This document shows positions 1,411 to 39,083 of a DNA stretch of 64,000 nucleotides, piece after piece; positions within the stretch are counted from its first letter, which is position 1; each line of letters opens with the position of its first letter. The translations under genes were made by a program, and so were the position numbers. The notes below the pieces were generated by a model. The model did not search any database. It was given only the letters and a program-made list of their open reading frames with translations, and had not been told where the DNA came from. Origin of the DNA: Prevotella sp. (lineage in GTDB: Bacteria; Bacteroidota; Bacteroidia; Bacteroidales; Bacteroidaceae); NCBI GenBank assembly GCA_017443345.1, contig JAFSNR010000029.1, positions 1 to 64,000 on the forward strand, given 5' to 3'.

Positions 1411-2595
1411 ATGAGAGGGAAAAAGCTGTTATTATTGGTTTTGTCACTGGGTATGGTACTTCCCAGCTTGGCTGCTGGCGACGATGTTGTACCGGTCGTA
1501 GCCGGCTTTCTGGGCAAGGTGGGAACTTTCCTCGATTCGATGGCGGTGAATGGCTTGGACCGTCGCTATGTTGACGCACCTAAAAGACCTTGGCAGGTGA
1601 TTCTCAGAGGCAATATCAACCAGTCGATCCTGTCGATAAATACCCAGACATCTCATGCTGAGGATATCCTGCCTTTCATGTCGGGGGATATGACTTGGGA
1701 GCCGCGTATCAAGACCGTTCCTGCAACATACCTCGGTATCTGGGCTGGTTACAGAGGCTACGGCTTTGGCTATTCCTGGAATGTGGGAGGCGACAAGGGA
1801 CGTATCCTCACCTTGGGAGCTACTGGCGGCAGCTATGGCGTGAACCTGCGTATCCACTGGTTCGACAACGACGAGCCACATGTATATATGAAAGGAACCG
1901 TCTTGATGAGCATCGACCAAACAGGGACTCCCGTTTATAAGCCTATTGAATACAACGACGTCGTTGAGATGGGCAGTCCTATCCAGACGAGGGCGCTCTT
2001 CCTCGACGGCTATTATCTGTTCAATAAACGATGTTCGTATGCAGCCGCCTACGATCAGAGTGTGATCCAGAAGCGCTCATCGGGTTCGTTGATGGCAGGA
2101 GCCATGTATGTCCATTCCGCCACCGAGTATGACAATGATGTCAATGCCGACCTGATCATGTTGATGGACGATATTGGTATCATCAAGTCGGATCAGATCA
2201 GTGCCGGCGTGGGATATATCTATAACTGGGTGCCTGCCAAAGGTCTGCTCATCAGCGCCATGGCCATCCCCATGCTGACTTTTTACAACCACCACAAGAT
2301 GTGGCGTTTCGATTCTAACCTGAAGGACCTGGTGAATCAAGATGGTTGGGATGAGTTCATGGAAATGGAGGAGAAAGATTACCGAATCAGGGATGCAAAA
2401 AATAATCACATCGTCAGTAAGAACTCGAACATCAAACTGAGTTATGATGCCCGACTGTCGATTACTTACGAATGGAACAGCCGCGTGTTTATCAATGCCT
2501 ACGGGCAACTGAACAGTTTCGGATACAAACTGGATCAGGTCAGCGGACGCCTGCGCGACTGGTATATCAATGCATCGATCGGAGTGAGACTATAA
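1411..2595 (+). CDS. DUF4421 family outer-membrane protein
   Basis: From ATG 1411 the product is 394 residues with a clear signal peptide (MRGKKLLLLVLSLGMVLPSL...AGD). The frame stays open upstream to 1219, but that part precedes the -7 box and would bury the signal peptide. The mature part shows the RRYVDAPKRPWQVILRGN opening and alternating aromatic beta strands (YLGIWAGYRGYGFGYSW, LRIHWFDNDE) and ends with a strand closing IGVRL, typical of the DUF4421 family of predicted outer-membrane barrels in Bacteroidetes. Its job is unknown. It stands alone and converges on the GH3 gene at 2604. Confidence 0.75.
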   Translation: MRGKKLLLLVLSLGMVLPSLAAGDDVVPVVAGFLGKVGTFLDSMAVNGLDRRYVDAPKRPWQVILRGNINQSILSINTQTSHAEDILPFMSGDMTWEPRIKTVPATYLGIWAGYRGYGFGYSWNVGGDKGRILTLGATGGSYGVNLRIHWFDNDEPHVYMKGTVLMSIDQTGTPVYKPIEYNDVVEMGSPIQTRALFLDGYYLFNKRCSYAAAYDQSVIQKRSSGSLMAGAMYVHSATEYDNDVNADLIMLMDDIGIIKSDQISAGVGYIYNWVPAKGLLISAMAIPMLTFYNHHKMWRFDSNLKDLVNQDGWDEFMEMEEKDYRIRDAKNNHIVSKNSNIKLSYDARLSITYEWNSRVFINAYGQLNSFGYKLDQVSGRLRDWYINASIGVRL

Positions 2596-2603
2596 ATTCA
2601 ATT

Positions 2604-4853
2604 TTACTTGTATTTCCCGACACGTTCGTCAGCGATGGGGCCGCTCCAGTTCAGGCCGAAGGCGAAGTCGTAGGTGTGGCCGTCGGCATCCTGGTAGCAG
2701 CGCATGTCGCGGGGTACGTCCTCCTGCTGCTCCTCGACGGTCTTCATGTCGGCAGGCATCTGCATGGGCAGAAGGGCTGAGGGCTCGTTCTTACCGCTGA
2801 TGATGTCGAGCAGGGCCTGATGCTGTACCTTGAAGGAGATGAGGATGGCATCGGCAGAGGGCTCGATCTCTGTGAGTACGACGGGGCGGCCTGTCTCGAT
2901 GATGACGATGACAGGGCGATCGCCCATCTGCTTCTTCGTCTGCTGAACCAGCAGCATATCGTCGCGGTTATAGGCCTTGACGGTCTTGCCTCGGAAACTG
3001 CGGTTGGTGAACTTCTCCATCGGATCGCCACCGGCAATGCTGACAGCACGGGCATCGCGGGCGGTGTAGTCGTCGTACTGCAGACTGAAGGGCATATAGC
3101 CATTACCACCTCGTTTCACATCAGCCGTGCTATAGCCGATACCCGTGTTGGGCTCCTGAATGAGGCAGATGGCGAAATCGGCTTGCTCGGGCTGTTCCAC
3201 CACATCGAAGTACTTCTTCACCAGAGCGAGGTCGATGGGCTCGACGGTCTTCTCCTCGGAGATGCCACCCCAGATGCCTGGGATGGCGGGGAAGTGGCGC
3301 TTGGGCACAAAGACCTTTTTACGATCCTTGACGGGGAGCACCTGGTTATCGCGGTTCTTCAGCATGACGACGGACTTGAGCTGGGCCTCGTAGCCCTCCT
3401 GCATGAACTCGGGCTTACCCACCGTCTTCTCCGTCTCTGCAGGGTCGAGGTAAGGATTCTCGAAGAGTCCCACGCGGAAGACATTGAGCAGCAGGCGACG
3501 GGCGGAGAGCTCGAAGCGCTGGCGGGCACTCTCCTCGCCCTGCTCCTTGCTCCACATCTGATAGGCCTCCACCACAGGGCCTATCTCGTTGTTGCCACCA
3601 AACTGATCGACGCCAGCCTGAAGGATCTTGTAATGACGCTCGGCCTCGTTGAAGGCTTCCATGCCCCAAGGCTTACCACCAATGGGACTGTCGAGCACCT
3701 TGATATCCTTCGTGATGCCCCAGTCGGTACAGGCGACACCCTGGAAGCCAGCCTCATCGCGCAGCTGTTGTTGGATAAGCCAACGGCTATAGCTGCCACC
3801 TACGTTCTGACCTGAGGGATCCTGATTCCACAGGATGCTGTAGATGGGCATGACGGCAGAGGCCATCTCTGTGCCGCCTTCGAGACGGAAGGCTCCCTCG
3901 ACGAACGAACGCTTGTGCATGGCGAGGTTGTTACCCGGATAGACGGCATACTTGCCCGAGGCGAAATGGGAGTCGCGCCCACCCTCCTGGGCTCCATAGC
4001 CATACCAGTGCTTCACCATCGCATTGACACTCTTCATGCCCCAGCCCTTGGCCTCAGGGGTGGTCTGGAAGGCATCGCAATAGGCACGGGCCATATCCGT
4101 AGCCAACTGCGGATCCTCACCAAACGTGCCGTCGAAACGGAACCAGCGGGGATCGGTGGCAATATCGACCTGTGGCGAGAGGGCTGTGGCGATGCCCAGG
4201 GCACGATACTCCTCGGAGGCTATCTCGCCAAAGCGGTGCATCAGCTGGGGATCGAAGGTGGCTGCCAGTCCGAGGGACGTGGGCCAGAGCGAGATCTTGC
4301 CGCCTGCGCCTGCATTGAACTCAGCGGTGCCTGTGGCGTCATGACGGGGGTCGGAACTGGTGTTGGAGGGGATGCCATGGTCGAGGCCCTCGACGAAGGC
4401 CTGCATGTTGTTGTTCCACTTGGCAGCCGTAACAGGGCTCTCCACAACGGTGATCAATACAGCGCGCAAATGGTCATCGGCGAGGAACTTCTTCTGATCG
4501 GCAGTCAGACTATCGGCAGGCACGGGCTGATGGCTGCTGTAGAGCATCAGTCCGGCTATCTCCTCGATGGAGAGCTGTGAGGCGAGGTCGGCAGCACGCT
4601 CCTCGGCAGGAAGACGCCAGTCCTCATAGGCATCGAGCGAGTCGTTGCGGTTCAGGTCCTTGAAGGCGAAGCCATCGACCGTCAGCAGCTTTACGCCTGA
4701 TTGTGGCGAATAGCCCAGAGAGGGGCCACCCTTCTGAGTGACCAACATGAACGAGTCAACCTGTTGCTCGGACCACTTCTGGCCACTGCAACCTGCTGTC
4801 AACCATCCCGCCAAGGCGAGAAGCGCTGTCATCGAGAGTGATAGTTTCTTCAT
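2604..4853 (-). CDS. Glycoside hydrolase family 3 lipoprotein (beta-glucosidase/xylosidase type)
   Basis: A 749-residue GH3 enzyme that would release beta-linked glucose or xylose from oligosaccharides outside the cytoplasm. A lipoprotein signal ends in LTAGCS. Next comes an EF-hand-like stretch (DLNRNDSLDAYEDW). The GH3 barrel carries the KHWYGYGAQEGGRDSH catalytic-region motif and the nucleophile Asp near residue 376 in GVACTDWGI. The alpha/beta C-terminal domain follows. Unlike the other three GH3 enzymes here, it has no obvious FN3-like domain after that and ends early (ADERVGKYK). It is divergent from the esterase at 5047. A 180-bp piece of its 3' part is duplicated at 478-657. Confidence 0.9.
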   Translation of the reverse strand: MKKLSLSMTALLALAGWLTAGCSGQKWSEQQVDSFMLVTQKGGPSLGYSPQSGVKLLTVDGFAFKDLNRNDSLDAYEDWRLPAEERAADLASQLSIEEIAGLMLYSSHQPVPADSLTADQKKFLADDHLRAVLITVVESPVTAAKWNNNMQAFVEGLDHGIPSNTSSDPRHDATGTAEFNAGAGGKISLWPTSLGLAATFDPQLMHRFGEIASEEYRALGIATALSPQVDIATDPRWFRFDGTFGEDPQLATDMARAYCDAFQTTPEAKGWGMKSVNAMVKHWYGYGAQEGGRDSHFASGKYAVYPGNNLAMHKRSFVEGAFRLEGGTEMASAVMPIYSILWNQDPSGQNVGGSYSRWLIQQQLRDEAGFQGVACTDWGITKDIKVLDSPIGGKPWGMEAFNEAERHYKILQAGVDQFGGNNEIGPVVEAYQMWSKEQGEESARQRFELSARRLLLNVFRVGLFENPYLDPAETEKTVGKPEFMQEGYEAQLKSVVMLKNRDNQVLPVKDRKKVFVPKRHFPAIPGIWGGISEEKTVEPIDLALVKKYFDVVEQPEQADFAICLIQEPNTGIGYSTADVKRGGNGYMPFSLQYDDYTARDARAVSIAGGDPMEKFTNRSFRGKTVKAYNRDDMLLVQQTKKQMGDRPVIVIIETGRPVVLTEIEPSADAILISFKVQHQALLDIISGKNEPSALLPMQMPADMKTVEEQQEDVPRDMRCYQDADGHTYDFAFGLNWSGPIADERVGKYK

Positions 4854-4913
4854 ACGATATTTGATTTTAGTGAATTAGCAATTCCTTTGAGACATCGTTC
4901 TAGCTTTTGGGTG

Positions 4914-4921
4914 CAAAGATA
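4914..4921 (-). promoter_or_regulatory. -7 promoter box for the GH3 gene at 2604-4853
   Basis: CAAAGATA reads TATCTTTG on the minus strand, 60 bases before the ATG at 4853. Confidence 0.6.
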
Positions 4922-4930
4922 CAAAAAAAG

Positions 4931-4965
4931 TAAAAAGTAAAAAAGTAAAATGGTAAAAAAGTGAG
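4931..4965. repeat. Probable heptad-type 35-bp element (GTAAAAA variant)
   Basis: The tract reads as roughly five 7-base units of the type taaaaag/taaaaaa/gtaaaat/ggtaaaa/aagtgag. Registration is looser than in the other members of the family (see 14976, 21297, 22993, 41875, 42105, 49001, 59316). It sits in the divergent intergenic region. Confidence 0.4.
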
Positions 4966-4986
4966 TTGGTAATTAAATAAGGTTAA

Positions 4987-6264
<1,278 letters not shown>

Positions 6265-30151: not shown

Positions 30152-30590
30152 TTAATAGAATTCAAATGGGGTATGCTTTGAGTTCATGATGTTGTCAAAT
30201 AATACGGAGAGTTTTTCTTTTAAGAACTTACACGATCTATCCAATTCATAAATTCCCGCTTCATTATTAAACATACTATCGTTTTCTTCGAAATTGTCAA
30301 TACTTAATCCAATAGGTATCTTTGTCTCTGAATAATACAATCTCTTTAGTTCGGTCTCTGTTTCTTGGGAAAAATTTGGAATAGGGACTCGATCAAAATA
30401 AGAAGGAGACAAATGCCCGCCAGATCCCCCTACAGTCATATAATCGGTATAACCGATTTCTTTATAGTATTGCAATATACAACGTATGGAAATAGCCTTT
30501 TGCTTTGGGCAATTATTTGGCCGCAAGATATTCTCACGCTCTTTGGTTGTGAACAGCAAGAGCCTTATATTTGCCGAAGCTTGGCAGAGT
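30152..30590 (-). pseudogene. hsdS: C-terminal fragment of a type I restriction specificity subunit (HsdS)
   Basis: The frame runs from 30613 to 30152, but its first eight codons (MRLVNLKP) come from the copied start of the arylsulfotransferase-like gene, joined at about 30591. The rest, with ILQYYKEIGYTDY, GGSGGHLSPSYFDRVPIPNF and ELKRLYY, is the end of an HsdS target-recognition domain and the following conserved helix. HsdS proteins give type I restriction-modification systems their sequence specificity. No hsdM or hsdR is present in the window. This is a chimeric relic. Confidence 0.75.
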
Positions 30591-30754
30591 GGTTTTAGGT
30601 TTACAAGTCTCATCGTTTATGTAAATTGATATAATTACACCTTTCGTTTGCAAAGATACAAATAATTATCGAAATGCATAAGAATTCCAAGTAATTCATT
30701 TCGATTTTCGGATTTTTTTCTTATCTTTGCACCACGAGAAGCTATATCGCATAA
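30591..30754. repeat. Direct repeat DR1, copy 2 (164 bp)
   Basis: Gap-free match to 26606-26769. On the left it ends exactly where the HsdS fragment begins. On the right it carries the promoter box TATCTTTG (30722-30729) into the phytase-esterase-like pseudogene. Confidence 0.92.
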
Positions 30755-31882: not shown

Positions 31883-32287
31883 TTACATCTGGGCTAAAAA
31901 AACTTTTATATTGAGTACTATCAGCTTAGGCCAATCAATAGTTCTCAGCACATTGAAATGTTTGTCATTAGTTACAATGAGTTCTGCGCCTGCAGCAATA
32001 GCACAATCAACAAACTTATTATCGTCAGCATCTTCTGTAATCAGGCCAAAATGATAATAAGCATCTTGATAATACGTTGTACTTAACCTGGCAATTGCCT
32101 CAACGACGTTACGGGCTATATCCTTTGTGGTCTTACTTGATAATATCTCCTCATATTCGTTCAATATCTCAGTATTCACACACAACTGAATTTGGCCATT
32201 TAGAATGTTTGTCCATATCTTATGATACGGGCTATTTGAAGGAAGTGACTGCAAAAGGCAGTTTGTATCAAGGACGATTCGCCTCAT
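31883..32287 (-). CDS. PIN-domain ribonuclease toxin
   Basis: 134 residues from ATG 32287; a longer frame to 32461 overlaps the antitoxin and is not used. The PIN fold of the COG1569 toxin type is shown by RRIVLDTNCLLQSL (first Asp), EILNEYEEIL (Glu), DADDNKFVDCAIAAGAELIVTNDKHF (Asp cluster) and VLNIKVFL. Such proteins are Mg-dependent RNases neutralised by a co-encoded antitoxin. The start lies 20 bases inside the preceding 76-aa gene. All acidic site residues appear to be present, so the toxin may be active. Confidence 0.85.
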   Translation of the reverse strand: MRRIVLDTNCLLQSLPSNSPYHKIWTNILNGQIQLCVNTEILNEYEEILSSKTTKDIARNVVEAIARLSTTYYQDAYYHFGLITEDADDNKFVDCAIAAGAELIVTNDKHFNVLRTIDWPKLIVLNIKVFLAQM

Positions 32288-32498
32288 ATTGATAAGGAGT
32301 ACGCATGTGTTCTTCACCCCATTCCTCAATGGTGTCACTATTGATGACACCTTGATCCCACAAGGCATCGATGGACTTTTGGGCTTTCTGTGCAAAATAA
32401 CGTGCCAGCATATCCCTGAAATCGTTGAGTTCTGATTCAGAGTTAATGCTATTGATGGCATTCATAAACTCCAACTGTGCTAATTGACTGTACGACAT
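32268..32498 (-). CDS. Putative antitoxin of the PIN toxin
   Basis: 76 residues from ATG 32498. It is acidic and helical (LEFMNAINSINSESELNDF, MLARYFAQKAQKSID) and ends in EEHMRTPYQYEANRP. The -7 box CAAAGATA at 32520-32527 (TATCTTTG on the minus strand) lies just upstream. The 3' end overlaps the toxin start by 20 bases, the usual antitoxin-first organisation. No DNA-binding fold is recognised. Its promoter lies in a 79-bp stretch that is repeated exactly before another small operon at 36214. Confidence 0.7.
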   Translation of the reverse strand: MSYSQLAQLEFMNAINSINSESELNDFRDMLARYFAQKAQKSIDALWDQGVINSDTIEEWGEEHMRTPYQYEANRP

Positions 32499-32518
32499 GT
32501 TAATTCCTTTTTTTGTTG

Positions 32519-32630
32519 GCAAAGATAAGAATTATTTGGCAATGCTCCAAATAATTAAAGGGATTTATTGTATTTTCCCGTTCATTTATTCTTCCACGGA
32601 GTTTTTGTCCTTCTCGAGGGTGGTACCTTC
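32519..32630. repeat. Direct repeat DR2, copy 1
   Basis: The first 79 bp (32519-32597) are identical to 36233-36311. Similarity continues to about 32630. It holds a minus-strand promoter (TATCTTTG) and the C-terminal tag repeat EKDKNSVEE-stop. Confidence 0.92.
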
Positions 32631-32656
32631 ATAACTTACGTCAGCTCAAAATTGCT

Positions 32657-32844
32657 TATGTAATAGTACTTAATGGTTTCCCGGAATTTGCTTCTATAAT
32701 ATCCTTGCATGTAAAATCATCCTGGGGATACTCTGGTATTGACAAATCAGCAAACCTTGCCTCTAATTCTGCATCAGAGGGAACAGCATTAGCTCTTCAT
32801 CTAACTTTTGCCTTGCGATAAGGTTTTTTATCGATTATTTCCAT
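32657..32844 (-). pseudogene. Broken small gene, antitoxin-like
   Basis: ATG 32844, preceded by an AGGAGG ribosome-binding site that is unusually strong for this phylum, opens a frame MEIIDKKPYRKAKVR interrupted by TGA. After that it continues RANAVPSDAELEARFADLSI and IPEYPQDDFTCKDII to a TAA at 32657-32659. The composition resembles small antitoxin partners of Bacteroidetes. The in-frame stop marks it as inactive unless it is a sequence error. Confidence 0.5.
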
Positions 32845-32878
32845 TCCTCCTATTTTATATTATGTCTTTGCGATGATT

Positions 32879-32978
32879 AGATAGCACAATCGTCAGCAGT
32901 AAGAGAATCCACCCAGCCAAATACTTTGTCCTATATAGAATAAGATGCATGCTTTGAACAAAGAAAGAGCGATTTCTC
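32879..32978 (-). pseudogene. Truncated copy C of the DprA-like gene
   Basis: About 100 bases nearly identical to 31634-31735 and similar to 29973-30075, covering the region that encodes REKSLFLCSKHA to DDCAI. No start or continuation survives. Confidence 0.65.
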
Positions 32979-32982
32979 TAAA

Positions 32983-33015
32983 GGCGTCCCCGGAGCCTGG
33001 GTTAGGCCTCGGGGA
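32983..33015. other. Strong imperfect hairpin
   Basis: CGTCCCCGGAGCC and GGCCTCGGGGACG pair over 13 positions with two mismatches around a 7-base loop. It lies after the BspA-like gene on the minus strand and may serve as its terminator, although no T run follows. Confidence 0.5.
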
Positions 33016-33069
33016 CGACGGTATGGACAAGAGGATTCTCGCCTGTTTGTTGTGCGTAGACCGTTGTGT

Positions 33070-34482
33070 TTATTCTGTGTAATCTTTCGTAGTCCATCCT
33101 GACGGGATGCCGTTGGAGCCAGTGGTCCACGAAGTCATGGAAGCAGTCTTCGTAAATGTTCCTGTTGAGGCTACACCCCTTAGCCAGTTCGTAGTGCAAT
33201 CTTCTGCACTGATGTCAGTGGCGAGACATGTGACAGAATTCAGACTGGTGCAATCACGGAACATATAACTGTAGCAACGTTTAGCCAAGATTGTAGCGGG
33301 AAGTGCTGGCGCAGAAGTTAAGCTGCTACAGCCATCGAACATTCTGGTGTAACAAAAATCAGCCATCGTCGTTGCGGGAAGTGCTGGGGCCGCAGCCAAA
33401 CTGGTGCAACCACGGAACATGTTTTGGTAGCAATATTCTGCCAATACCGTGGCGGGCAGATCTGAAGCTGTAGTTAATCCTGTGCATCGCATAAACATAC
33501 CGTTGTAGCAGCTGTTTGCTAGTGTCGTAGCGGGGAGTGTGGGGGCAGAGGTCAGACCAGTGCAATCACTAAACATGCTACTGTAGCAATTTTCTGCCAA
33601 TGTCGTGGCGGGCAGTTCGGGAGCTTTAGTCAGACTTGTACAACCACTGAACATAAGGCCATAGCAATCTTTTGCCATTGTTGTGGACGGCAATTCTGGT
33701 ACCACTGTTAGACTAACGCAATTTCTGAACATATTAAAGTAGCAAGATTCAGCCATCATTGTGGCCGACAGTACGGGGGTAGATGTTAATTTGTCGCAGC
33801 CACTGAACATACTATTGTAGCAACCTTTTGTCAATGTAGCAGCTGGCAGTACAAGTTCTTTTTCTGTATGGTTTTTAATATGTGAGTTGTTCTTAAATAG
33901 TCCATAGAATGCATATTCACCCTTTGTTGCATCGAATGCCGTTAATGTTTTAAAGTCTGTGGCATTGATCAAGCTCATTACGTTTCCATAAACATAGCAG
34001 TCATCACTAGCACTTATAGAACAATGACGTATAACTTCACTAGAAGAAATATTCCAATCAGACTCTCCATACGTGGCGTTGGTGGCCCTGACCATAATCT
34101 TTTCAGCATCGGTAGTATTCAGCGTGCCGGGAACTTCCTCATGCGATTCGCCATCATAATATTCAGGTGTGCCACTAGGTACTGAAACGGTATTCCAGCT
34201 GATGCCGCCGTCAGTGCTGTATTCGAGAGCCACAGCATCCTTGAGAGTGCTCTTGAAAGTAAGATTGATCGTACCTGTTACGGCCTCGAAGGTAAGCGGT
34301 GTTTCAATCATTGGCAAATTTTCAGACGTGGGTGCCACAGGTGTCGAAGGTGTGACAGTTGTGGGCTTGTCTACATCGCCAATGACTGCATCGATGAGCC
34401 CCTGACACGAAGTCGCAGCCGATGCTCCTGCCAACAACATCACAGCTGCCAGCACATTTTTAATTAAATCATTCTTTTGCAT
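33070..34482 (-). CDS. BspA-like leucine-rich-repeat surface lipoprotein
   Basis: 470 residues with a lipoprotein signal (GASAATSCQG). An N-terminal linker and a beta-rich domain follow (about 60-200, TSTDGGISWN-type FN3-like). Eight or so tandem 26-residue repeats run from about 205 to 420, of the pattern LPATTLAENCYSSMFSDCTG plus LTSAPT. This is the BspA-type leucine-rich repeat with conserved Cys-Tyr and Met-Phe pairs. A conserved tail ends in GNGIPSGWT-like residues (SNGIPSGWTTKDYTE). Such proteins bind host or microbial surface partners in oral and gut Bacteroidales. It has a long structured leader (34483-34830). Confidence 0.85.
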   Translation of the reverse strand: MQKNDLIKNVLAAVMLLAGASAATSCQGLIDAVIGDVDKPTTVTPSTPVAPTSENLPMIETPLTFEAVTGTINLTFKSTLKDAVALEYSTDGGISWNTVSVPSGTPEYYDGESHEEVPGTLNTTDAEKIMVRATNATYGESDWNISSSEVIRHCSISASDDCYVYGNVMSLINATDFKTLTAFDATKGEYAFYGLFKNNSHIKNHTEKELVLPAATLTKGCYNSMFSGCDKLTSTPVLSATMMAESCYFNMFRNCVSLTVVPELPSTTMAKDCYGLMFSGCTSLTKAPELPATTLAENCYSSMFSDCTGLTSAPTLPATTLANSCYNGMFMRCTGLTTASDLPATVLAEYCYQNMFRGCTSLAAAPALPATTMADFCYTRMFDGCSSLTSAPALPATILAKRCYSYMFRDCTSLNSVTCLATDISAEDCTTNWLRGVASTGTFTKTASMTSWTTGSNGIPSGWTTKDYTE

Positions 34483-36232: not shown

Positions 36233-36344
36233 GCAAAGATAAGAATTATTTGGCAATGCTCCAAATAATTAAAGGGATTTATTGTATTTTCCCGTTCATT
36301 TATTCTTCCACAGCGTTTTTATCTTTGTCGAAGGTGATGCCTTC
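36233..36344. repeat. Direct repeat DR2, copy 2
   Basis: 79 bp identical to 32519-32597, then a diverging stretch with the C-terminal tag repeat (YEGITFDKDKNAVEE-stop). The distance between copies is 3714 bp, same orientation. Confidence 0.92.
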
Positions 36345-36401
36345 GTAGAGAGCTTGGGTGTCTTCGTAAATCATAGAATTGCAAGATGGATTATTATAAT
36401 A

Positions 36402-36904
36402 GCCTACATGCCTACATAAATACTATGGATTTTACTTATAACAAGCGGCTTATATCAATATTATACCTACATAGAGCCTACATAAAGCCTACATGATACC
36501 TACATGTTTTTTACGCAATTAGTGGCTTTTAGGGGCTGATAGGGGAGGTCGCAAGTTGAGAAAAGTAGGATTGAAAGGCTTGAAGTGGGATTTAGTTATT
36601 GAATTCTCTAGAGAATTGAAGAGCTTACTAGGGGGTTAGCAATTGCCAGAAGGCTTCTTATCGTTGATTTCTCTAGAGAATTGAATAACGAGAGTTAATA
36701 TAAAAAGGTGCAAGATGGAAGTTTCGATTCTTTGAGATAGGCTATCAGGGGTTATCATGTAGGGAATTTTGCTAAAAAAGGGTCGAATTAGGTCGAAATC
36801 ATGTAGGCTTTATGTAGGCATAGTGTAGGCTTTATGTAGGTTAAGGATTAAAATATTTATAGTAAATATAGCCATTTCGAGCATTTTTATGTAGGCATGT
36901 AGGC
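36402..36904. repeat. Mirror-symmetrical array of 8-bp iteron-like repeats (GCCTACAT / ATGTAGGC)
   Basis: Left arm: six GCCTACAT-type units starting at 36402, 36410, 36465, 36476, 36487 and 36498. Right arm: six ATGTAGGC-type units starting at 36801, 36812, 36823, 36834, 36889 and 36897. The spacings are 8, 55, 11, 11, 11 on the left and 11, 11, 11, 55, 8 on the right, an exact mirror. The sequences between the units in the two arms are not the same. One further unit (ATGTAGGG) lies at 36757. The array ends 65 bases before the VirE-like gene start. It looks like protein-binding iterons of an origin or a complex operator. Confidence 0.85.
36602..36682. other. Two copies of a TTCTCTAGAGAA palindrome near the centre of the array
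   Basis: AATTCTCTAGAGAATT (36602-36617) is a perfect 16-bp palindrome. A second copy (core TTCTCTAGAGAA, 36669-36680) follows 65 bases later and is also followed by TTGAA. The midpoint between them lies within about 11 bases of the centre of the mirror array (36653). Confidence 0.75.
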
Positions 36905-36924
36905 AGTATATGAAATAATTTTTG

Positions 36925-36932
36925 TAATTTTG
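36925..36932 (+). promoter_or_regulatory. -7 promoter box for the VirE-like gene
   Basis: TAATTTTG matches TAnnTTTG, 37 bases before ATG 36969. It makes the frame extension to 36930 impossible. Confidence 0.6.
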
Positions 36933-36968
36933 CAAAATCAAACGTGCAACAATCAAAAAAATAACGAT

Positions 36969-39083
36969 ATGAATATCACATTACTCAAAAAATCTGGATC
37001 AAAAGAGGTTATTAACCGTGTAGAACTAGCTAAGATGGCAGCTGCGATCAAGGACGGGATGATCAAGAGGACTGTTACGCATACCCGCGAGGTATATCAT
37101 CTGATGAATCCGCATCGACTGGACGATGGTCAGATCTCTACACAATGGGAAGGGGGTATCAAACTTCCAAGGATCTGCTTTGCGGCTGACTACAGGAATC
37201 ACAAGGGGCTGTGGCAGATGATGGCGTATAACGGGCTGACAGTGCTCGAGGTGAACGATCTGCCCAGTTATGAGAAGGCGGTGGAAATCAGGGAGTTGGC
37301 CAAGAAACTACCTGAGACGATGCTCTGCTTCCTTGGAGGCTCGGGCAAAAGTGTGAAGATTGTGTGTCGTGGTGAATTGTACAAGGGCGGTTTGCCCATT
37401 GAGCAAAAGGACATCCAGCAGTTCCACCTTAATCTATATAACACGGCGCGAAGGGCCTATCAGAACCAGTTTGGCTTCGACATCAAGTTCCTGGAGCCTC
37501 GATTAGACCGTATAGTGTATATGAGTGCTGATCCTGAGATGGGCTACAACCCAGAGGCTCGTCCTTTCTATGCCGATACTGACAGCCACGAACAGCCTCA
37601 GCCAGTAGTGATCAGCCGCGAGGAGGATCATCTGATGCCTGGACGAACGGTTACCAGGACTTATCATCTGAACTGGACCTTCATCGTGGAGACGGTGATG
37701 GGCCACTATTTCGACCTGCCTGACGAGGACAAGGAGGCGACGCTGCTGATGCAGATTGCCTCGATGTGCCTGGATCAGGGCATTCCCAAGGCGCATGCCC
37801 AAGGACTGACGATGCTCCACCCTGTGCTAAATCGCGACCGCCTGCTGGTAGAGAAGATCTTCCAGACGGTCTATAGCGTGGCTGAGCAGGCGGACTATCG
37901 CGAGAAGCACAAGATAAAGCCCCTGAAGAGCGTGCCTGAGGATACCATCCAGGCGATGAAGACAGAAATCTTCCTCAATTCGAACTTCGATATGCGCAAG
38001 AACCTGTTGACGGGTGTGGCTGAGTATCGCGAGAAGTTCAGCGACGACCAGCGATTCAAGCCGCTGACTGAGGAGGTTCGCAACGATATGACGCTGAGGG
38101 CCACCGAGTTAGGTCTGAAAGCATGGGATCGGAACGTGAACCGCTTTATCGACTCGACGCGCATTGAGCAGTACGACCCCATCAATACCTGGCTCGACAA
38201 GTTGCCCAAATGGGATGGACATGATTATATCGCAGATCTCGCAGCCCGTGTACCTACCTCCCAGCCCCATTGGCAGAAGTACTTGAAATTCTGGCTGATT
38301 GGTATGGTGGCTCAATGGCGCGAGAGCGATAAGCAATTGACTGGCAATGCGTTAACACCGCTATTGATTGGTCGTCAAGGTTGTGGCAAGACGCGATTCT
38401 GTAAGATTATCCTGCCTCCGGAACTGCGCGATTACTACAACGACAAGCTGAACTTCAAGAACGAGTTCGACCTGAATATCGCACTCACGAGCTTTGCGCT
38501 GATCAATATCGACGAGTTTGACAAGACCACGAACTCTCAGCAGATTGTGCTGAAATACCTGTTGTCGTCGAGCGATGTGAAATTCCGTCCGCCATACGGC
38601 AAGACCATCAAGTTCTATCGTCGCTATACCTCTTTTATCGGTACCACGAACCAGATGAAGCCACTCGTGGATCCAACGGGAAGCCGCCGATTCGTCTGCG
38701 TTGGTGTGAATGGGAACATCGACTTCGAGGATAACCTCTACCACCATCAGCTCTTCGCCCAAGCCCTGCACCTGTTCAATGCAGGCGAACGATTCTGGCT
38801 GAACGATGATGAGATCCAGACGCTCATCCAGGAGAACGAGCCTTTCCAGAAGCTGAACGATCTGGTGGAGATGATTGGCGAGAGCTTCCGCAGACCCAAG
38901 GAAACAGAGCAGGCCAAGTGGTGGAGTCTGGGCGACATCAGTCAGTTGCTCGCTGCCCGCTATCAGAGCTTCGACCCCGAGACGCCCTTCCAGAAGATCG
39001 GTAATGCCCTGAACGACGTGCAGTTCAACTTCAAGAGCAAGCGCAAGACCAACCACATGGAATACTGGCTGATAGAAAAATAG
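36969..39083 (+). CDS. BT4734-like / VirE-type primase-helicase protein
   Basis: 704 residues from ATG 36969. The N-terminal half (about 30-230) resembles the BT4734-like domain, related to primase-polymerase folds (RICFAADYRNHKGLWQMMAY, TMLCFLGGSGKSVKIV, HLNLYNTARRAYQNQFG). A middle helical part follows. The C-terminal VirE/D5-like P-loop ATPase has Walker A IGRQGCGKTRF near 467, Walker B ALINIDEFDK near 513, and the sensor region TSFIGTTNQMKPLVDPTGSR with an Arg-rich end. The architecture suggests replication initiation of a mobile or formerly mobile element. No integrase or relaxase is in the window. The mirror iteron array lies directly upstream. Confidence 0.8.
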   Translation: MNITLLKKSGSKEVINRVELAKMAAAIKDGMIKRTVTHTREVYHLMNPHRLDDGQISTQWEGGIKLPRICFAADYRNHKGLWQMMAYNGLTVLEVNDLPSYEKAVEIRELAKKLPETMLCFLGGSGKSVKIVCRGELYKGGLPIEQKDIQQFHLNLYNTARRAYQNQFGFDIKFLEPRLDRIVYMSADPEMGYNPEARPFYADTDSHEQPQPVVISREEDHLMPGRTVTRTYHLNWTFIVETVMGHYFDLPDEDKEATLLMQIASMCLDQGIPKAHAQGLTMLHPVLNRDRLLVEKIFQTVYSVAEQADYREKHKIKPLKSVPEDTIQAMKTEIFLNSNFDMRKNLLTGVAEYREKFSDDQRFKPLTEEVRNDMTLRATELGLKAWDRNVNRFIDSTRIEQYDPINTWLDKLPKWDGHDYIADLAARVPTSQPHWQKYLKFWLIGMVAQWRESDKQLTGNALTPLLIGRQGCGKTRFCKIILPPELRDYYNDKLNFKNEFDLNIALTSFALINIDEFDKTTNSQQIVLKYLLSSSDVKFRPPYGKTIKFYRRYTSFIGTTNQMKPLVDPTGSRRFVCVGVNGNIDFEDNLYHHQLFAQALHLFNAGERFWLNDDEIQTLIQENEPFQKLNDLVEMIGESFRRPKETEQAKWWSLGDISQLLAARYQSFDPETPFQKIGNALNDVQFNFKSKRKTNHMEYWLIEK

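Follow-up and report, generated by a model that had tools for sequence, protein, structure and literature searches.

A mirror-symmetrical array of short repeated units lies upstream of a BT4734/VirE primase-helicase gene in the 64,000-nucleotide stretch of Prevotella sp. DNA analysed here (the window). The architecture is conserved upstream of homologous genes, the sequence of the units co-varies with the protein encoded beside them, and copies of the array are dispersed within genomes. On balance we take the array to be the landing platform of the neighbouring primase-helicase, most likely working as an origin, and the best reading of the data is a putative initiator-binding, origin-like site which also overlaps the VirE promoter. 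The order of the units, not their abundance, is the special feature of the array; taken singly, the 8-mer shows no enrichment in the window, with 51 matches at up to one mismatch against 47 expected.

Architecture of the array and its palindrome pair

The features of the locus, in window coordinates, are as follows.

36402, 36410, 36465, 36476, 36487 and 36498, plus strand: left units, at steps of 8/55/11/11/11
36402..36417, plus strand: left outer pair, GCCTACAT twice at an 8-bp step
36465..36505, plus strand: left inner array, four units at 11-bp steps
36604..36615, unstranded: first palindrome TTCTCTAGAGAA, with its partner 65 bp on
36669..36680, unstranded: second palindrome TTCTCTAGAGAA, 65 bp after the first
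36757..36764, minus strand: 13th unit, CCCTACAT, placed 44 bp inward of the right arm and without a left partner
36801, 36812, 36823, 36834, 36889 and 36897, minus strand: right units, at steps of 11/11/11/55/8
36801..36841, minus strand: right inner array, four units
36889..36904, minus strand: right outer pair, roughly at the expected -33 region of the VirE promoter
36925..36932, plus strand: TAATTTTG, likely -7 promoter element (TAnnTTTG) of VirE
36969..39083, plus strand: BT4734/VirE gene, 704 aa from the ATG
about 37161-37541, plus strand: BT4734-like_N domain (PF08800, E=8e-38)
about 38193-38840, plus strand: VapE-like AAA+ domain (PF05272, E=4e-34)
38919..39080, plus strand: residues 651-704 at the C-terminus, the stretch that diverges most closely in step with the unit sequence, overlapping a sub-threshold DUF3874 match

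All 12 units described in the earlier note were found where it had put them, and eight of them are exact; those at 36465, 36498 and 36834 read ACCTACAT and the one at 36823 reads GCCTACAC. Its statement that the spacers have diverged while the units are kept was also borne out, as the left and right arms are 98% identical in the units and 45% in the spacers. The units and spacings of that description therefore stand; what it had overlooked are the 13th unit, the palindrome pair, a divergent HU-like gene, copies without VirE and a unit code specific to each locus. Between the array and the ATG at 36969 lie 64 bp, and the element has a G+C content of 36% against 50% for the window. The array folds strongly as a single strand (z=-8.7) because its units are inverted. 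An RNA family was rejected, as Rfam gave no match at 36300-37000, and so was tRNA-linked integration, as no tRNA is found within the 64-kb window.

The midpoint of the palindrome pair (36642) is 11 bp off the centre of the array (36653). The 12-mer TTCTCTAGAGAA occurs ten times in this 4.16-Mb genome, always as one of five 65-bp-type pairs. Pairs of two TCTCTAGAGA separated by a gap of 48-62 bp were detected in 39 of 299 genomes of the genus, the listed places having a spacing of 65 or 66 bp; the reversed TCTCTAGAGA pair pattern had no match in any of the 299. A simpler pattern, CCTACATNNNNCCTACAT, was present in 6/60 relatives, none of them among the 24 that belong to other families. Among the best 80 of 136 VirE relatives, a near-copy of the pair lies upstream of VirE at 49 loci, spaced by 65 bp in 46 and by 66 bp in three; some of the remaining loci have no upstream sequence and others carry one palindrome or none. 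The near-invariant pair at the centre might be bound by another factor, one that stays the same as VirE varies. A 65-bp palindrome pair without units was also observed in this genome, at about 5669-5750 of locus L092 (G000:C67:35669-35745), flanked by a translation-factor gene and a kinase-like gene.

Homologous loci, the VirE gene and its promoter

The best 80 of 136 VirE relatives were kept from a scan of public genomes; their record titles are Prevotella, Xylanibacter, Prevotellaceae, Bacteroidaceae or Bacteroidales, and many come from ruminants. The 77 of these loci with at least 500 bp upstream were searched de novo for 7-mers of any sequence that recur every 11 bp in both arms, and the mirrored-array score was at least 9 in 68 of them; the same score stayed at or below 6 in 154 shuffles and in 61 real control windows (0/61 arrays). 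A chance origin of the array is ruled out by these shuffles and control windows together with the palindrome-pair counts. Among the nine low scorers, L098, L100 and L139 keep units with shifted steps, and no units were seen in L132, L141 (which contains an N run) and L172.

The earlier note had named persistence upstream of homologous genes as the test of its own reading, and the 68/77 loci supply it, upholding both the helix-phased 11-bp spacing tied to a primase/helicase gene and the array as a putative protein-binding site. A further unit lies 54-56 bp beyond the end of the 11-bp run in at least one arm at 53/77 loci and in both arms at 30/77, with other distances found at one to nine loci each, except 66 bp with 26, so the fixed 55-bp step that it reported is kept in at least one arm of 53 loci.

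Most of the distant VirE relatives examined (28-44% identity, from Bacteroides and gut-phage records) lack the mirrored 11-bp architecture. Other short upstream repeats, some near a 22-bp period, were seen at the distant VirE/VapE genes L187, L192, L026, L306 and L307. Plasmid and phage collections yielded only remote relatives of VirE and a scan of viral contigs yielded none; all plasmid matches fall below 60% identity, and the near-full-length ones among the matches listed are at 26-34%. The VirE loci sit among chromosomal genes, which does not fit an autonomous plasmid. Three PLSDB plasmid records (L305-L307) carry gltX, priA, argC and similar genes and may thus be pieces of chromosome; two of them, L305 and L307, hold a divergent HU / BT4734 pair in Bacteroides.

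The only convincing solved relative of VirE is PDB 7pds, which is matched by the VapE domain of VirE (E=6.4e-13) and is named as similar to D. nodosus vapE. The P-loop GxxGxGK and the DE are invariant in 52 sequences. The AEP metal-binding motif I (hhhDhD/E) is not evident by eye, and E94 and N96 are invariant at the candidate place. BT4734 is counted among the AEP primase families in the accessible part of PMC5862659, where, as here, a BT4734-like_N domain is fused to a VirE/VapE AAA+ domain; unlike here, arrays, HU partners and dispersed copies are not mentioned in that part.

TAnnTTTG lies within 130 bp of the VirE start at 73 of 78 loci against 1/61 control windows, which were taken at a distance of 3 kb and are perhaps mostly coding sequence. 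With the motif at 36925, the right outer pair (36889-36904) sits about at the -33 box, as expected from the spacing of Bacteroidetes promoters. Binding there could thus repress VirE, and the protein would in that case shut off its own gene. An operator is probably a second role of the array, and a joint origin and operator role, with the -7 motif so regularly close upstream of VirE, is plausible.

It is unlikely that the array is an operator and nothing else, with VirE or an HU-like protein repressing divergent VirE and HU promoters through mirrored operator sets and no origin involved. The frequency of TAnnTTTG in front of VirE would suit such an arrangement, as would the HU-like gene (PF18291) which stands divergently on the far side of the array at 34 of the 80 loci (best 80 of 136; at four it directly follows VirE); 42/80, some of them without flank sequence, have no HU-like gene in either place. 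The inner arrays and the palindromes are moreover far from the promoter, and 19 of 31 array-only copies keep the architecture with no outward TAnnTTTG near either end (it is present in the other 12; a random window has it in 6.7%).

The genes neighbouring the VirE loci vary, and no conserved right end after the VirE stop was recognised by eye in 60 of the 80 loci. In the window, an 18-codon match (83%) to an HU-like protein at 30543-30596 on the minus strand is possibly a remnant, and a PIN-domain gene and a BspA-type leucine-rich-repeat gene lie to the left of the array at 31883-34482. Several left flanks look defence-like to us, judging from gene starts and N-termini; at L145 the array side left of VirE (1449-5189) holds a 1246-aa gene whose start seems to resemble Cas12a.

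Co-variation of the units with the VirE C-terminus

Arrays and VirE tend to occur together: a VirE of at least 59% identity was found in 31/39 genomes with the palindrome pair and in 2/40 without it, the latter having been hand-picked for completeness above 90%. Within a locus the units are fairly alike, and from one locus to another their sequence changes (CCTACAT, CCGACAT, CTCTACT and others). Unit profiles were built by script extraction for 63 of the 77 analysed loci, and the distance between units is correlated with that between VirE proteins (r=0.71, permutation p=0.0005). The loci share ancestry, so this co-variation is partly descent. Among 28 sliding windows, residues 651-700 give the highest correlation (r=0.77, with a partial correlation of 0.40 after removing whole-protein distance), and the C-terminus outperforms residues 1-640 in 500/500 bootstraps. 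The coefficients of a multiple regression are 0.62 for the C-terminus, 0.38 for residues 1-72 and -0.31 for the primase region. Two loci of one genome, L136 and L137, differ by 3% in the body of the protein and by 25% in the C-terminus, and their units differ; L115 has a similar pattern.

The repeat word thus changes together with the tail of the protein, and the array therefore looks like the landing site of that protein. As the units track VirE, and best its last 50 or so residues, the C-terminus probably reads them; judged by these comparisons of sequence, the best-fitting reading is that the VirE C-terminus binds the units, and we put high confidence in it. This region, probably a winged helix, would read each 7-8-bp unit, and the 11-bp steps would place the copies of the protein on one helix face. 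The two mirrored arms could then seat two facing helicase rings for two-way unwinding.

In iteron plasmids the initiator and its iterons change together, as VirE and its units do here. The Rep initiators of SaPIs come closer, having a VapE-type AAA+ domain related to 7pds and several short iterons in two clusters beside the gene. According to the accessible part of PMC7581432, their iterons are read by the C-terminus, and the SCCmec initiator Cch2 likewise binds direct repeats through its C-terminal domain; for VirE the corresponding reading is indicated by co-variation alone. In the same part of that source the SaPI origin lies downstream of the gene, whereas the array described here is upstream. 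Also unlike SaPIs are the strict mirror with 11-bp and 55-bp steps, the 65-bp palindrome pair and the chromosomal array-only copies, and, unlike Cch2 and the iteron plasmids, these loci are chromosomal, and a single genome can carry several unit codes (here CCTACAT, CCGACAT and a third).

From the homology and architecture shared with SaPI Rep, we consider it somewhat probable that the site starts replication. Counting against the overall reading, landing platform and origin together, are ten of 21 array copies whose units misfit the VirE-linked array of their genome, the genomes G122 and G024 with no close VirE, the contribution of residues 1-72 together with the negative primase coefficient, the shared ancestry of the loci, the inconspicuous AEP motif I and the position of the array upstream of the gene. 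An initiator with an iteron origin is a known kind of system, and the mirrored-array form appears to be a new variant of it; no earlier description of these arrays was found in the literature searched, in which subscription papers were thinly covered.

BT4734/VirE genes are usually named by domain only, and the fixed architecture together with a code that follows the C-terminus would turn them into initiators with a predicted site, making dozens of natural protein-site pairs available for a binding test. Should replication indeed start at the arrays, such chromosomes would hold several scattered origins, each with its own address and spread as non-coding elements. This would have consequences for genome amplification, for the ways in which origins gain mobility and for replicon tools in rumen Prevotella.

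Dispersed copies of the array

This genome carries two further full CCTACAT arrays, at C1 and C69, with no adjoining VirE, so that a unique locus or a feature of VirE genes only is ruled out. The two nearest VirE paralogues in this genome (73% and 64% identity) have arrays of their own, of the CCGACAT type at C195 and of a third, weaker type at C140. Across both arms of the three CCTACAT arrays the units are 96% identical and the spacers 51%, and the array-only copies are dispersed relatives, probably under selection at the units. Among 51 palindrome pairs, in regions chosen from match lists, 34 have no VirE within 1.5 kb. No VirE reaching 59% identity is present in eight of the 39 genomes with the pair; G122 (99% complete) has two intact arrays and no VirE candidate, and G024 (99% complete) has 17 copies and no VirE above 37% identity.

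The array-only copies lie between ordinary genes, and copies within a genome mostly share about 450-900 bp in unrelated flanks. In size and form (50-1000 bp, non-coding, repeated, with inverted ends) they match MITEs, although one pair shares 1.4 kb. They resemble BrickBuilt of Porphyromonas gingivalis (PMC4596501, accessible part) in being short, non-coding and intergenic, with many copies, inverted ends and internal repeats; BrickBuilt is described there with 23-nt head-to-tail repeats, whereas the 11-bp mirrored units here follow a helicase gene and no IS-like ends were recognised. One copy in G123 occupies a 977-bp gap between xre and pyrK. Sixteen relatives have both genes; the gap measures 52-230 bp in 13 of them and 454-737 bp in the other three, where reading revealed no array. 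The G123 element has its own unit type, and its sibling L285 adjoins a VirE of 29% identity. An empty site was also sought at cbiG, where the gene order after the gene is too variable to be read.

Such lengths, the xre-pyrK gap and the persistence of copies in G122 and G024 would all be expected if the mirrored arrays were the terminal inverted repeats of a small recombinase-bound transposon, with VirE as a passenger or replication helper. We regard this as improbable, since the units follow the VirE C-terminus, the borders shared between copies vary from pair to pair, and 13 elements yielded no consistent direct duplication of the target (L280 has a nominal P=0.03). At four of these 13 (L094, L278, L280 and L275), inverted matches of 5-7 bp, differing per element, lie just outside the outer units; random places have them in 0.1%.

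Unit profiles were obtained for 37 of 43 arrays, and 21 copies were compared with an array linked to VirE in their own genome. Eleven fit it at 0.76 or above, a cut chosen post hoc, and ten do not, further VirE arrays being present in some genomes; for three of the 11 an array from another genome fits at least as well. As a whole, the set of 21 fits better than under label permutation (p=0.0015). This fit, the copies kept without VirE in G122 and the defence-looking genes left of several arrays (named by their N-termini) would agree with decoy or incompatibility sites, which would titrate or handcuff VirE-type initiators and thereby restrict the entry of elements that share their iterons. That role is very unlikely, given that no close VirE was seen in phage, plasmid and viral-contig collections and that two mirrored arms with palindromes exceed what a decoy needs.

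Returning to the origin-like reading, we tentatively suggest that the copies could be satellites of it, in which VirE initiators with private codes would fire cognate arrays spread genome-wide as tiny non-coding elements. Several pairs that do not cross-react would then share a cell, and the array would itself be the unit that is copied and spread. The 17 intergenic copies of G024 (L056-L072) are a 660-bp relative of the element; they have CCTACAT arrays, their palindrome pair is a different one centred on GGCC, and one of the copies is shortened.
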